Shown in pieces: positions 21,196 to 26,410 of a stretch of 64,000 nucleotides of DNA; within the stretch, counting starts at the first letter, position 1, and each line of letters begins with the position of its first letter. The translations under genes and the position numbers were made by a program. The stretch spans positions 124,001 to 188,000 of the forward strand of contig CACLXL010000001.1 in the NCBI GenBank assembly GCA_902610975.1. The letters run 5' to 3'. Under the pieces are notes generated by a model. It saw only the letters and a program-made list of their open reading frames with translations, did no database searches and was not told where the DNA came from. This DNA comes from an uncultured Pelagibacteraceae bacterium (GTDB lineage Bacteria; Pseudomonadota; Alphaproteobacteria; Pelagibacterales; Pelagibacteraceae).

Positions 21196-22016
21196 TTACT
21201 TCTGATTTTAAAAAAAAAATGACTGATAGTTGGTTTTCGTATTTACAAAGTCAGATTTGTAAAGAGTTTGAATATCTAGAAAAAAACAAAATTAAATTCG
21301 TAAAAAGAAATTGGAAGAAAAATAAAATAAATGAGGGTGGGGGTACCTCGTTTCTTTTATCTAATGGAAAAATATTTGATAAGGTTGGTGTAAATAAATC
21401 AACTGTATCAGGAATTTTTCCAAAAAAATTTAGGTCTAAGATTTTAGGAGCAGAAAAAAAAGGTAAATATTGGGCATCAGGTATATCTGTTGTTGCTCAC
21501 ATGAAAAATCCTAAAATACCTGCAATACATTTTAACACTAGATTTATAGTAACCTCAAAAGAATGGTTTGGAGGAGGTATGGATGTTACGCCAAGTTTCA
21601 AAGATCTAAAGGAAAAAAAAATGATCCATGATGATCTGAGGAATATTTGTAATCAAAATAAGAAAAGTTACAAAAAGTATAAAAAATGGTGTGATGAATA
21701 TTTTTATTTACCTCACAGAAAAGAAACAAGAGGAATAGGAGGAATTTTTTTTGACTATGAAACTAAAAATTGGATTGAAAATTTTAAATTTGTAAGGGAA
21801 CTTGGTCTGATTTTTATTGAAATTTCAAAAAAAATTATTAAGAGAAAGGAAAAATTAAAGTGGACTAAATTAGATAAAGAAAAACAATTATTAAAAAGAG
21901 GAAGATATGTTGAATTTAATCTTTTGTATGATAGAGGTACAAAATTTGGTTTAAATTCAGGTGGGAATATTGATTCAATATTAATGTCGCTTCCACCAGA
22001 AGCTAAATGGAAATAA
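21192..22016 (+). CDS. hemF: Oxygen-dependent coproporphyrinogen III oxidase
   Basis: A 274-aa haem-synthesis enzyme that converts coproporphyrinogen III to protoporphyrinogen IX using O2. Conserved blocks are GISVVAHMKNPKIPAIHFN, WFGGGMDVTP, the HemF signature around KKWCDEYFYLPHRKETRGIG-GIFFDY, RGRYVEFNLLYDRGTKFGL and SLPPEAKW at the end. It is slightly shorter than the roughly 300-aa E. coli enzyme. The O2-dependent form fits an obligate aerobe, and haem is needed by the bc1 and oxidase genes in the same window. Confidence 0.95.
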   Translation: MITSDFKKKMTDSWFSYLQSQICKEFEYLEKNKIKFVKRNWKKNKINEGGGTSFLLSNGKIFDKVGVNKSTVSGIFPKKFRSKILGAEKKGKYWASGISVVAHMKNPKIPAIHFNTRFIVTSKEWFGGGMDVTPSFKDLKEKKMIHDDLRNICNQNKKSYKKYKKWCDEYFYLPHRKETRGIGGIFFDYETKNWIENFKFVRELGLIFIEISKKIIKRKEKLKWTKLDKEKQLLKRGRYVEFNLLYDRGTKFGLNSGGNIDSILMSLPPEAKWK

Positions 22017-22018
22017 TT

Positions 22019-22495
22019 ATGGAAAAAGAGCCAATAACAGTAAAAGGTTTAAAAAATTTAAAATCGGAGTTGGATGATTTAAAAAATATACAAAGACCGA
22101 AAGTTGTTGCTGCAATTTCTGAAGCAAGATCGCACGGTGATTTAAAAGAAAATGCTGAATACCATGCAGCAAAAGAACAACAAGCATTAATAGAGAGTCG
22201 AGTTATTGCCATTAATGATTTAATTGCTAGAGCTAATGTAATAGATGTAACAAAAATAGAAAATAATGGAAAAGTAATTTTTGGATCAACAGTAAAAGTT
22301 CAAGATTTAGAAACTAATAAAGAGATATCTTATAGACTCGTTGGACAAGATGAGGCTGATATTAAAAAAAATTTAATTTTTTTTAAAAGTCCAATCGGTA
22401 AGTCTTTAATCGGAAAAAGTAAGGGTGAGATGGTAAGTGTAGTTACGCCATCAGGTGAGAGGAACTTTGAAATATTAAATGTTGAATATATATAA
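22019..22495 (+). CDS. greA: Transcription elongation factor GreA
   Basis: About 158 aa from MEKEPITVKGLKNL; an ATG 12 bases upstream (22007) overlaps hemF and is less likely. GreA stimulates RNA polymerase to cleave backtracked transcripts. The N-terminal coiled coil has the acidic tip and signature VAAISEARSHGDLKENAEYH (about 34-53), with the tip residues D and E. The C-terminal FKBP-like domain has IFGSTVKVQDLETN and SPIGKSLIGKSKGEMVSV. It begins 2 bases after hemF and converges on cca. Confidence 0.95.
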   Translation: MEKEPITVKGLKNLKSELDDLKNIQRPKVVAAISEARSHGDLKENAEYHAAKEQQALIESRVIAINDLIARANVIDVTKIENNGKVIFGSTVKVQDLETNKEISYRLVGQDEADIKKNLIFFKSPIGKSLIGKSKGEMVSVVTPSGERNFEILNVEYI

Positions 22496-22496
22496 T

Positions 22497-23753
22497 TTAA
22501 TTTCCCTCTATAATCTTATTTATTCTGTCTTTAGAAATCTTAAATCCATTATTTAACCACTCTTCCTCTATTTTATTCAAAACTTTTCCTAGATCTTCTC
22601 CCTCTTCCATTCCATTTTGTTTCAAATATTCACCATTAATATCCAATTTTGGAATTACAGAGTTTAAAATTTTATTTAAAGTATTTGTAAATTCTTGTAA
22701 TTTTATCTTTGGATTACATGCATAATTAAGAATATTTAATGTTATCAAATGATTTTTACCATTTAAATAAATATTTTTAAGCAAATCTTTATAAAAAAAA
22801 TCTTTGTTATTTTGTGCAAGATTTAAATTTTTAGCTAGTTTTTCCAAAGATAATTTAAGTTTATTGGAAACGTTATATTTATGTGCAAAATATTCATGGT
22901 TATCCTTTTCATCAATTAATAAAACACTAAGAAGGATATCTTTATTTAATTGTAAGTTTCTATTTATTTCTTTGACTCTTTTCAATCTATCTAGATAAAT
23001 GAATTCAGGAAATATTATTTTGAAAATTTCTAATAAATGATAATTTTCATAAATTTTAAGGAAACTTTTTAATTCTAAAATTTTTAGTAATTCCAATAAA
23101 ATTCTCTCTTTTGAAATTTTTTTTATTCCATCTAAATTTTGTTTAATCGCAGCGATTGTGGTGGTCTCTAATTTTAAATCATACATGATTTTAAATCTTA
23201 TAAACCTTATTATTCTTAAATAATCTTCCTCTATTCTTTTTTGTGGATCTCCAATAAATTTCACATTTTTATTTTTTAGGTCTACTGTACCCATTTGAGG
23301 ATCAAATATTTTTCCCTCTCTATCTAGATAAATTGCATTAATGGTGAAATCCCTTCTTTCGGAGTCTAGTTTCCAATCATCAATGTATTTTACATCAGCA
23401 TGCCTCCCATCCGTTCTATAATCTTCACGCAATGTTGTTATTTCAACTTTAAAATTATCTGAGATAACTGTAACTGTTCCGTGTTTGGTCCCAGTATCAA
23501 GAACCTTAAAATAAGTATTTTTAAGTTTATTTTTAACTTCATCTGTTGTTAAAATAGTTGCTATATCTATGTCATCAATTTCTTCTCCAGAGAGATGTTT
23601 TCTTACACAACCTCCAACAAATCTTGATACTACTTTTTCTTTTGGAAGATCAGATTGCAATTTTTTAAATAAAAATTGTAATTCTTTATTTTTATAAAAT
23701 GGAAAAATTGCGTTTTTTAAATTTTGAAAGAAGTTAAATTTGAAATTCAACAT
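22497..23753 (-). CDS. cca: CCA tRNA nucleotidyltransferase / polyA polymerase family
   Basis: A 418-aa class II nucleotidyltransferase. The head has the G-rich loop FVGGCVRKHLSGEE, the metal-binding DDIDIA (Asp-x-Asp) and RRDFTINAIYLD, followed by the RNA-binding arm EEDYLRIIRFIRFK. It adds or repairs the CCA end of tRNAs; a polyA-polymerase role cannot be excluded from sequence alone. The start codon lies 6 bases downstream of the encoded CCA end of a tRNA-Gln gene on the same strand, so the mRNA is probably released by tRNA 3' processing. Confidence 0.9.
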   Translation of the reverse strand: MLNFKFNFFQNLKNAIFPFYKNKELQFLFKKLQSDLPKEKVVSRFVGGCVRKHLSGEEIDDIDIATILTTDEVKNKLKNTYFKVLDTGTKHGTVTVISDNFKVEITTLREDYRTDGRHADVKYIDDWKLDSERRDFTINAIYLDREGKIFDPQMGTVDLKNKNVKFIGDPQKRIEEDYLRIIRFIRFKIMYDLKLETTTIAAIKQNLDGIKKISKERILLELLKILELKSFLKIYENYHLLEIFKIIFPEFIYLDRLKRVKEINRNLQLNKDILLSVLLIDEKDNHEYFAHKYNVSNKLKLSLEKLAKNLNLAQNNKDFFYKDLLKNIYLNGKNHLITLNILNYACNPKIKLQEFTNTLNKILNSVIPKLDINGEYLKQNGMEEGEDLGKVLNKIEEEWLNNGFKISKDRINKIIEGN

Positions 23754-23759
23754 AATCTA

Positions 23760-23833
23760 TGGCTGGGGCACTAGGATTCGAACCTAGGATGGCGGTATCA
23801 AAAACCGCTGCCTTACCGCTTGGCTATGCCCCA
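23760..23833 (-). tRNA. tRNA-Gln (anticodon TTG), CCA encoded
   Basis: The minus strand folds as a full cloverleaf. A 7-bp acceptor stem (TGGGGCA with TGCCCCA) leads to the D arm GCC...GGC with AGCGGTAA loop. The anticodon stem GCGGT/ACCGC holds loop TTTTGAT (anticodon TTG), and the T arm is CTAGG-TTCGAAT-CCTAG. Discriminator G73 is followed by an encoded CCA (plus-strand tgg at 23760-23762). G73 and the U1-A72 pair are usual for bacterial glutamine tRNAs. ispE ends 35 bases upstream and cca starts 6 bases downstream. Confidence 0.96.
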
Positions 23834-23868
23834 AATACAAGTGACTGATATATCATAATTCGATAAAT

Positions 23869-24705
23869 TTAAATAGTTTTTGCAACTGAAGACCAGAATT
23901 TAGGGTATTTATTTCTAATTATTTTAAGTGCGACTTTTGTACTTTTTTTATTATTGAACAAACCATAACATGCAGATCCTGATCCAGTCATTCTAGAAAA
24001 ATAACAACCTTTAAGCTGGCTTATATTTGTCAATAAATCCCTAATAATTGGGTGTTTTTTTTCAACAATTGATTGTAAATCATTTTGTGAATTCTTAATT
24101 TCATTTATAAATTTATTTTTTAACTTAAGATTTTTTTGCACTAAAAATTTTTTTTTAGAGAATTTTCTTACTTTTGAAAAAACCTCCTTAGTGGAACATT
24201 TTATTTTTGGGTATACCAGCAAAAAAAATAGTGTTTGTTTTTTTTTCAATTTCTCGACTTCATTGATATTTTTAAGAAATCCTTGATTGTATACAAATAG
24301 TCTAAGATCAGATCCTACGTAATTTATGATTTTATTAAGCAATTTTTCTTTAATCTTTTTTTTTATTAAATATTTCATAACAATACTTGCATTACTTGAG
24401 CCGCCTCCAAATCCTGCAAAAACAGGAATTTTTTTATAAATTTTGACAGAATAAAAATCATGAATAAGCTTATTATTTCTCATTGATTTTAAAACCTTCA
24501 ATACAGAATTATTTGATTGACCAACGAAGTTTGAAAAGGGTCCGGTGAAGGATATTTCATCCTTTTTTTTATTAATTTTTTTTATGATAATTCGATCGTT
24601 TAAGTTGACCAAACAATAAATTGATTGAAGATTGTGAAGACCTTTTTTAAACTTTTTATTTATGCTCAAGGTCAAATTGATTTTCGCGTGAGAATTTAAA
24701 ATCAT
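23869..24705 (-). CDS. ispE: 4-diphosphocytidyl-2-C-methyl-D-erythritol kinase
   Basis: A 278-aa GHMP-family kinase of the MEP isoprenoid pathway. It starts SHAKINLTLSINKKFKKGLH (the conserved KxNLxLxVxxKRxDGYH block, with GLH for GYH). The glycine-rich ATP loop VFAGFGGGSSNASIV lies near residue 95 and the C-terminal MTGSGSACYGLF completes the site. Downstream steps of the same pathway in this window are ispH and the carotenoid genes. It lies 4 bases after the TPR gene. Confidence 0.92.
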   Translation of the reverse strand: MILNSHAKINLTLSINKKFKKGLHNLQSIYCLVNLNDRIIIKKINKKKDEISFTGPFSNFVGQSNNSVLKVLKSMRNNKLIHDFYSVKIYKKIPVFAGFGGGSSNASIVMKYLIKKKIKEKLLNKIINYVGSDLRLFVYNQGFLKNINEVEKLKKKQTLFFLLVYPKIKCSTKEVFSKVRKFSKKKFLVQKNLKLKNKFINEIKNSQNDLQSIVEKKHPIIRDLLTNISQLKGCYFSRMTGSGSACYGLFNNKKSTKVALKIIRNKYPKFWSSVAKTI

Positions 24706-24709
24706 TTGA

Positions 24710-26410
24710 CTATAAGCCTTTTATTAGTTTTTTTTCAATGTTCTCTTTCAGTTCTTTCTCAGTTTTGTCAAGGGTCAGAACATAATTCCAATAATATCTA
24801 GCTTGAATTTTGTTCCCTATGTTCCAAAGAACATCTCCGTAATGATCGTTCACTATCGGATCAGCTGGCATTAATCTTACCGCAAGTTGGAGATAATTTT
24901 TTGACTCTTCAAATCTTTTCAGCTTAAATAAAGCCCACCCAAGTGAGTCTATAATATAAGGATCGTTAGATTTTAATTTATTTGCCTTTTCTAACATTTG
25001 CAAAGATTGCTCAATTTTCATACCTTTTTCAATCCATGAATATGCTAAATAATTAATTACATAGGCTTGATCTGGTTTAACTTCTAAAGACATCATTAAA
25101 TCTTTTTCTGCATTTTCCCAGTCACCAATTCTCTCGTAAGCTACACCCCTGCCATCAGTTACTTCTGAAAAAAGTGGGTGTTTTTTATCTATCTGTTTTA
25201 AAATTTCTGAATAAAATTTAATTGACTCCTCAAATTTTTCATTATTTTTTAAAAATTCTGCGTAATCAAACGTTTCATAAATACCTAAATTTTGTAAATT
25301 GTTGTAAGAATTTGTTAATAATTTTATCGATTCATCTGTTTTTTCTTCTTGAATCAATATATTTGAAATTTGTTTATTTGAGTGCCACTTAAATGCGCTT
25401 CCACGCTGTGATAAATTTTTATATATTTTTTTTGCATTAATAAAATCTCCAATATTATAAAAATTTTCAGCTAGTAAAGTATCAAACGAATAAAATTCTT
25501 TGTTAAGATATTTAGATAAATTTAAATAAAAATTAGATGTTTGGTAAATAGATTGAGACGACAAAGCATTAGCAGCTATATAAAGTAATTCTGCAATAAC
25601 ATCTTGTTGTTTTGTACAATCAAATTTAAAATTGTTTTTTTTGTCCTTTAAATCAATTTTATATTGTTTTAGCAGAAGATTTCGAGGGTGTTTTTCAAGA
25701 GATTTTTCTAAAATTTTTTTTGCTTCACTTAAGTTCCCCAGGCTTTCCATATATTTTGCGTGAAAATAAAAGTACCTAGAAAAATCTGTTTTTTTATCTG
25801 AAGTCAAATTTTCAAAAAACAAATTAGTATTTTCACTTCTATAATAACAATTTAAGAAAGCTCTCTGAATTTTTTTCAAATTCTCAAACCTATTATCTAA
25901 CTGATTAAGATTAATTGTAGCTTTATCTATTTTAATTTTATCCAAATTCGACCAAAGATATAATGTACTAGCAACGTAATTGTCTAAAATTGAAGTTAAG
26001 TTCCTTTTTTTGGCTTTTAAAAAATATTTGCTTGAAAGGTCATATTTAGAATTTTTAAGATGCTGTATTCCTATAATTATATCACTTTCAAAGCTATCTT
26101 TTTTATCTTTTTCTAACTTTTTTGAGAAATTGAATGCTTGGTAGAAATTTCCTGAGTTTACTAATGAATAAATGTACTTTGAGGAAAAAATTAAATGACT
26201 TTCCTCCAAACCATCTAGTTTTTTAAAATATTCGTAGGATTTTTCGTATTTGCTTTGATTTAAAAGTATAATTCCTGAAAAGTAATCAGCAATTTTATCA
26301 GCTTTATTAAATTTATCTAAATTTTTTGCGTTTAATGTGGAAAAGAAAATAAAAACAATGACAAAAAAGATGCTTCCTGTAGTGTTTATACTTAATTTAA
26401 ATTTTGACAT
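24710..26410 (-). CDS. Tetratricopeptide-repeat protein, exported
   Basis: A 566-aa protein with an N-terminal signal/anchor (GSIFFVIVFIFFSTLNA) and no lipobox Cys. The C-terminal 170 residues hold clear TPR units, for example ERIGDWENAEKDLMMSLEVK, INYLAYSWIEKGMKIEQSLQ and IDSLGWALFKLKRFEESKNY; weaker repeats fill the rest. TPR proteins of this build next to ispE are common in alphaproteobacteria, but no function is known to me. It is probably a periplasmic or membrane-attached scaffold. The start codon is 3 bases from that of the divergent uracil-DNA glycosylase gene. Confidence 0.8.
   Translation of the reverse strand: MSKFKLSINTTGSIFFVIVFIFFSTLNAKNLDKFNKADKIADYFSGIILLNQSKYEKSYEYFKKLDGLEESHLIFSSKYIYSLVNSGNFYQAFNFSKKLEKDKKDSFESDIIIGIQHLKNSKYDLSSKYFLKAKKRNLTSILDNYVASTLYLWSNLDKIKIDKATINLNQLDNRFENLKKIQRAFLNCYYRSENTNLFFENLTSDKKTDFSRYFYFHAKYMESLGNLSEAKKILEKSLEKHPRNLLLKQYKIDLKDKKNNFKFDCTKQQDVIAELLYIAANALSSQSIYQTSNFYLNLSKYLNKEFYSFDTLLAENFYNIGDFINAKKIYKNLSQRGSAFKWHSNKQISNILIQEEKTDESIKLLTNSYNNLQNLGIYETFDYAEFLKNNEKFEESIKFYSEILKQIDKKHPLFSEVTDGRGVAYERIGDWENAEKDLMMSLEVKPDQAYVINYLAYSWIEKGMKIEQSLQMLEKANKLKSNDPYIIDSLGWALFKLKRFEESKNYLQLAVRLMPADPIVNDHYGDVLWNIGNKIQARYYWNYVLTLDKTEKELKENIEKKLIKGL

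Follow-up and report, generated by a model that had tools for sequence, protein, structure and literature searches.

The transcripts of animal mitochondria are organized by tRNA punctuation. The locus described here, in which a tRNA-Gln gene precedes a likely cca gene in a Pelagibacteraceae genome, is like them in that the tRNA lies directly before a coding sequence on the same strand (3 to 8 nt away in 74 of 77 loci) and in that its excision would create a near-leaderless mRNA. It differs in lying on a bacterial chromosome, where many genes are not bounded by tRNAs and the CCA end is encoded, and in that RNase E is present, no RNase Z scores over its cut-off, and the excision is putative. Nor do tRNAs separate most genes of a common transcript, there being one tRNA among the 71 chosen coding sequences (CDS) of the window (the whole stretch of 64,000 nucleotides that was analysed).

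Bacteria also have mixed tRNA-mRNA operons, such as the E. coli tRNA-tufB unit, in which the gene keeps a leader and its own ribosome site. As in operons of that type, tRNA-Gln and cca lie on one strand and probably share one transcript, and a site scan of the window found no terminator-like site between them; unlike in those operons, cca has just 3 to 8 nt left in 74 of 77 loci. Leaderless mRNAs, as described in PMC9031893 and PMC3848588, have an AUG at or within a few nucleotides of the 5' end and no Shine-Dalgarno sequence, as proposed here, although they usually start at the AUG by transcription, whereas the 5' end of the cca mRNA would come from tRNA excision. A search by title and start of abstract, with most subscription papers outside its reach, found no paper on tRNA-cca or tRNA-hisS junctions in SAR11 or on tRNA punctuation in bacteria.

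The junction and its genes

On the minus strand, the junction reads ...GCCCCAG, the encoded CCA (23762-23760), TAGATT (23759-23754), and ATG (23753-23751). The original prediction had placed the cca start codon 6 bases behind the CCA end of tRNA-Gln, and both the coordinates and the gap proved right by the sequence and by ARAGORN, which finds no other tRNA in the window (Table 1). Because the spacer holds an in-frame TAG at 23759-23757, the ATG at 23753 is the earliest possible start of the 418-aa open reading frame (ORF). A common N-terminal register is found in 37 of 48 same-genus sequences, and in these 37 codons 2 to 16 vary by 1.19 bits at the third position, against 0.79 and 0.55 bits at the first and second. 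Since the third position varies more, translation very probably begins at this ATG, and we rejected the alternative of a wrong start codon on the grounds of this coding constraint from codon 2 onward.

Table 1. Features in and around the tRNA-Gln/cca junction (window coordinates)
Feature	Position	Strand	Basis or remark
TPR-repeat protein gene, first of the same-strand run	24710..26410	-	ORF; TPR Pfam matches
ispE (4-diphosphocytidyl-methyl-erythritol kinase), likely	23869..24705	-	GHMP C-terminal domain above cut-off
Conserved TATGATATATCA, candidate -10 region for tRNA-Gln	23846..23857	-	About 13-24 nt before the tRNA
tRNA-Gln(TTG), anticodon ttg, encoded CCA at 23760-23762	23760..23833	-	ARAGORN; Rfam tRNA model match in genome
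AT-rich 6-nt spacer TAGATT, presumed site of tRNA 3' cleavage	23754..23759	-	Sequence; spacer length and composition in 77 loci; cut inferred
cca, tRNA nucleotidyltransferase, 418 aa, likely	22497..23753	-	PF01743 and PF12627 above cut-off; best NCBIfam model a CCA enzyme, below cut-off
greA-like gene, convergent, 1 nt from the cca end	22007..22495	+	ORF; same neighbour beyond cca in L183 and L214

The ORF is likely cca, judging by its domains and its best model. It carries the nucleotidyltransferase head and RNA-binding neck domains of class II CCA enzymes (PF01743, 95.3 bits; PF12627, 41 bits; both over cut-off) and is the sole PF01743 match in the window's genome, which is 76% complete. Its best NCBIfam model is PRK13299 (CCA), at 204.5 bits against a curated equivalog cut-off of 290; the pcnB model scores 108.3 bits, and PF13735 scores 25.6 against a cut-off of 27. 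The likely ispE gene, whose best NCBIfam models are ispE-type and below their cut-offs (156.5 of 204 and 125.9 of 138.7 bits), lies 35 nt before tRNA-Gln on the minus strand, and the convergent gene beyond cca is one that we take to be greA-like.

Conservation of the pair

The tRNA-Gln/cca junction is real and is conserved in the family loci examined. tRNA-Gln stands directly before cca in 28 of 28 same-genus loci (L002-L029) and in 19 of 19 named loci titled uncultured Pelagibacteraceae (L032-L050), and no tRNA was found within the cca flanks of two loci from the sister family (L030 and L031). Forty further loci were fetched across the order, 37 of them from the window's family (g1, g5, g6, g7, g8, and g9) and 3 from the sister family. 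cca is the next gene in 36 of these 37; in G065 (g7), one 156-aa GNAT gene lies between tRNA-Gln and cca, and in the three sister-family loci a 183- to 184-aa ORF comes next after tRNA-Gln. Collapsing loci that were identical over the compared stretch, which can leave near-duplicates of one genome, reduced 87 loci to 81, namely 77 with cca next, G065, and the three from the sister family. In the 77 loci, the gap is 3 to 17 nt and takes values of 3 (20 loci), 4 (2 loci), 5 (15 loci), 6 (13 loci), 7 (23 loci), and 8, 11, 12, and 17 nt (1 locus each).

The original prediction had named conservation across SAR11 genomes as a check and loss in close relatives as a refutation; cca is next in 77 of 78 distinct same-family loci, and all 28 plus 19 same-genus loci keep the pair. 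An accident of one genome is thereby ruled out by the fetched family loci. Across the order, where many genomes are incomplete, 137 of 147 have cca and 134 of 147 have tRNA-Gln; these are separate lists, and gaps were measured in the fetched loci. We also rejected the idea that the adjacency is common across the class. Of 67 class genomes searched, 65 had a cca match and 30 of the 65 were taken as loci, one being the window's own; 28 of the other 29 have no tRNA in the flanks, which span as much as 1,500 nt and less near some contig ends, and the remaining one has as its sole flanking tRNA a tRNA-Cys on the opposite strand.

Three loci of genus g8 (L199, L200, and L201) have cca-type ORFs of just 252, 253, and 259 aa behind tRNA-Gln. 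In L201, the sole one of the three tested, PF01743 is kept and the neck and C-terminal domains were not found; these ORFs represent either a shortened enzyme or decay.

Origin by deletion

In four sister-family genomes (G037, G039, G045, and G050), about 2.8 to 4 kb separates tRNA-Gln from cca, both being on the same strand. The outer neighbours in L183 are those of the window, namely what we take to be an ORF resembling ispE ahead of the tRNA and, past cca, ORFs resembling greA, hemF, and trmL; L214 has the same presumed neighbours plus a presumed TPR gene. Between tRNA-Gln and cca, L183 has a 183-aa ORF for which no Pfam match was found, three opposite-strand ORFs, and then GNAT, DUF1285, and NUDIX genes. 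The states form a deletion series, with several genes over about 2.8 to 4 kb in the sister family, one GNAT gene in G065, and none elsewhere. Because the sister family keeps the pair at this distance on the same strand, gene order indicates that the junction arose by deletion of intervening genes in the window's family. A coding sequence starts 3 to 23 nt after tRNA-Gln in each state of the series, which means that tRNA-Gln had a close gene before cca moved there. As the synteny around the pair is old, its retention needs no selection on the pair itself. Genome shrinkage, leaving the cca mRNA almost leaderless, is the best explanation of the junction.

Transcription and translation signals

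The conserved TATGATATATCA may be a promoter for tRNA-Gln, although genome-wide support for it is mixed. TATGATAT occurs at -22 to -26 before tRNA-Gln (one at -32/-25) in 43 of 81 loci, and the pattern TG.TATA, which was chosen after the tRNA-Gln element was seen and for which tRNA-Gln supplies 5 of the 13 regions, occurs in 13 of 111 tRNA upstream regions versus 2.0 ± 1.5 in shuffles. A strict extended -10 scan upstream of tRNAs gave no enrichment (9.9% versus 7.9% in shuffles), and no consensus sigma-70 site is listed at the position of the element.

No Shine-Dalgarno-like 4-mer was found before cca. In the window, such 4-mers precede 9 of 71 CDS (longest-ORF starts), much as at random positions (12.25%), so that their absence does not set cca apart. 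Of the ATG genes that follow tRNAs, one of 36 with gaps of up to 10 nt has such a 4-mer, as do 13 of 23 with gaps of at least 20 nt, 8 of these 13 being entries of one gene that we take to be EF-Tu-like. In the predicted fold of the tRNA-Gln-cca RNA (one sequence, without a control), the tRNA arms form, and the start codon has its first two bases, A and U, free. Its G is paired at the base of a predicted 8-bp hairpin that follows immediately; this is so in the precursor and, going by the fold, nearby in the freed mRNA as well. This predicted pairing does not favour easy initiation.

tRNA 3' ends and their processing

The CCA end is encoded in 125 of the 128 tRNA entries listed for six same-genus genomes. 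Cca is therefore probably a repair enzyme in these genomes, as judged from their tRNA genes, and a shortage of it is not expected to block maturation of tRNA-Gln. The three entries without CCA correspond to two tRNAs, one of them entered twice; by ARAGORN, a terminal CCA is lacking in one tRNA-Thr (L081/L158, G036) and in one tRNA-Arg(acg) (L127, G007), and one tRNA-Thr of G036 is entered twice among the 128.

All 12 genomes searched have an RNase E/G match over cut-off, and one of 12 has such a match for RNase PH. For RNase D none of 12 does, although 11 show shorter matches, and for RNase Z none of 61 does, with weak matches in 43. Over the 14 control genomes, the same models exceed their cut-offs in 6 (E/G), 6 (PH), 2 (D), and 9 (Z), and since the cut-offs miss many controls, the absences are weak evidence. 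The likeliest route to the tRNA 3' end would be an RNase E-type cut followed by trimming. The RNase E of E. coli is reported to cleave a tRNA precursor 2 nt beyond metU (PMC4191395), and PMC3848588 describes P. acnes, which has no obvious tRNase Z, as having tRNAs with encoded CCA that are cut a few nucleotides downstream.

Spacing around tRNAs and the genes behind them

The spacing survey covered the same six genomes and the 128 tRNA entries among those listed, with weakly scoring tRNAs left out; it used ATG starts only, and a tRNA separated from the gene by a further tRNA still counts as a same-strand case. Of the 128 entries, 69 have their next gene on the same strand (36 within 10 nt) and 44 have a convergent one (26 within 10 nt); the other 15 have neither neighbour within 250 nt. 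For gaps of up to 20 nt among the listed entries, the median is 6.5 nt on the same strand versus 3 nt for convergent genes (Mann-Whitney p = 0.0003; p = 0.019 by isoacceptor medians), and the longer same-strand gaps fit a minimum distance for the start codon better than attraction between tRNA and gene. Gaps no longer than 10 nt make up 2 of 17 on the same strand and 3 of 11 convergent ones in two genomes of the sister family. The median same-strand CDS gap in the window is -1 (longest-ORF starts), and PMC2704228 gives a median intergenic length of 3 nt for Ca. P. ubique. The 6-nt spacing is itself ordinary for a compact genome, and a spacing special to cca is ruled out, short gaps being general and equally found near convergent genes; because convergent genes are equally close, the spacing does not in itself speak for processing. 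The shortest same-strand gaps seen are those of a TypA-like gene, 2 nt (L138, G034) and 1 nt (L165, G036) after the CCA of tRNA-Met.

Ten close followers of tRNAs were tested, namely pterin dehydratase, an NAD-kinase-like gene (17 nt behind its tRNA in the window's genome and 8 in G006), hisS, NDUFS4-like, DUF4422, sugar epimerase, trigger factor, 2-hydroxyacid dehydrogenase, TypA, and a PMT-type protein. One of the ten, hisS, has a product that acts on tRNA; the other nine do not, which counts against a loop specific to cca. A tRNA-Tyr/tRNA-Gly pair precedes a presumed EF-Tu-like gene in these genomes, a further likeness to the tRNA-tufB unit of E. coli.

The position of tRNA-His before hisS, the gene for its own synthetase, is an unexpected parallel to tRNA-Gln/cca. 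tRNA-His (198352-198428 of G000:C1, outside the window) lies 4 nt before hisS (162-1574 of locus L056), and the gap is also 4 in five other same-genus genomes. Of 22 same-family loci, 21 have a gap of 4 to 5 nt and one, G083, a gap of 28 nt, and in all 22 window-family loci an ORF of 444 to 478 aa follows tRNA-His. Five tested proteins score 339 to 369 bits with the hisS model TIGR00442 (cut-off 286.75). No same-strand ORF of at least 90 aa starts within 400 nt of tRNA-His in any of 23 sister-family loci. The family-wide statement rests on 30 of 87 matched genomes taken as loci and 20 further regions; five fetched regions without tRNA-His (L259, L260, and L271-L273) are uninformative.

Expression of cca

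Our preferred explanation, to which we give a probability of roughly 0.55, is a tRNA-mRNA unit made by genome streamlining, in which excision of tRNA-Gln would leave a near-leaderless cca mRNA. RNA polymerase would start just upstream of tRNA-Gln, perhaps with added read-through from ispE, and would transcribe tRNA-Gln and cca together. RNase P would make the 5' end of the tRNA, an RNase E-type cut in the AU-rich spacer would free its 3' end, and 3'-5' exonucleases would finish it. The second product would be a cca mRNA whose leader is absent or just a few nucleotides long and whose 5' end is formed by the tRNA; it would be translated without a Shine-Dalgarno sequence as most genes of the genome seem to be. 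Cca supply would thus be tied to the transcription and processing of tRNA-Gln as a passive consequence. The junction leaves no space for a leader or a terminator, so transcription running on from tRNA-Gln is the most likely way in which cca is expressed, with a very short leader after excision. Against this reading, a survey based on promoter signals detected leaderless genes in only 2 of 117 alphaproteobacterial genomes (PMC3160421), though its method would miss processed 5' ends.

A distinctly less probable alternative is pure compaction, with cca translated mainly from uncut read-through RNA and excision of the tRNA either irrelevant or destructive of the cca message. The close convergent neighbours (26 of 44), the median CDS gap of -1 in the window, the 3-nt median reported for Ca. 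P. ubique (PMC2704228), and the lack of Shine-Dalgarno sequences before nearly all genes here all agree with it. However, on uncut RNA a tRNA folded 3 to 8 nt ahead of the AUG should get in the way of the ribosome, and the longer same-strand gaps (6.5 versus 3 nt) hint at a minimum set by the start codon. Transcription of cca from a promoter of its own inside tRNA-Gln or ispE would be compatible with the sequence, and promoters inside genes do occur in bacteria, yet we think it quite improbable, the -10 position for a start near the cca ATG being the GC-rich acceptor end of the tRNA. No minus-strand promoter-like site is listed between 24472 and 23552, which weighs little because the scan equally misses any promoter before tRNA-Gln.

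The excision reading retains much of the original interpretation, in that adjacency, conservation, and the lack of room for a leader, Shine-Dalgarno sequence, or terminator make cotranscription and a very short leader probable. What found no support is the feedback loop that it added, by which tRNA 3' processing or charging state would regulate cca output. The family-wide retention of the pair and the parallel of tRNA-His and hisS speak for such a loop, but short spacing is general and extends to convergent genes, just one of the 10 tested followers acts on tRNA, 125 of 128 listed entries have an encoded CCA, and a pair made by deletion within old synteny needs no selection to be kept, and we consider regulation of this kind highly improbable.

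A broader proposal, which we hold to be doubtful, is that tRNA excision is a general 5'-end-forming step for near-leaderless mRNAs in the Pelagibacteraceae, a bacterial counterpart of mitochondrial punctuation, and that cca and hisS are kept family-wide because excision links the supply of the repairing and charging enzymes to the maturation of tRNA. Should excision indeed form 5' ends, streamlining would have given rise to a mitochondrial style of tRNA punctuation in free-living bacteria, and this would explain the expression of genes that have no room for a promoter or a ribosome site. In SAR11-type ocean bacteria, cca and hisS would be two tRNA-related cases within a wider tRNA-then-gene pattern. 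tRNA-His/hisS is the clean case, a tRNA and its own synthetase being probably on one transcript, which makes the coupling hypothesis directly testable. In g6, the acceptor end of tRNA-His differs from that of the other genera, and two HisRS start types occur behind the same tRNA-His, one of 462 to 476 aa (L256, L258, and L265-L270) and one of 444 aa (L257 and L261-L264).
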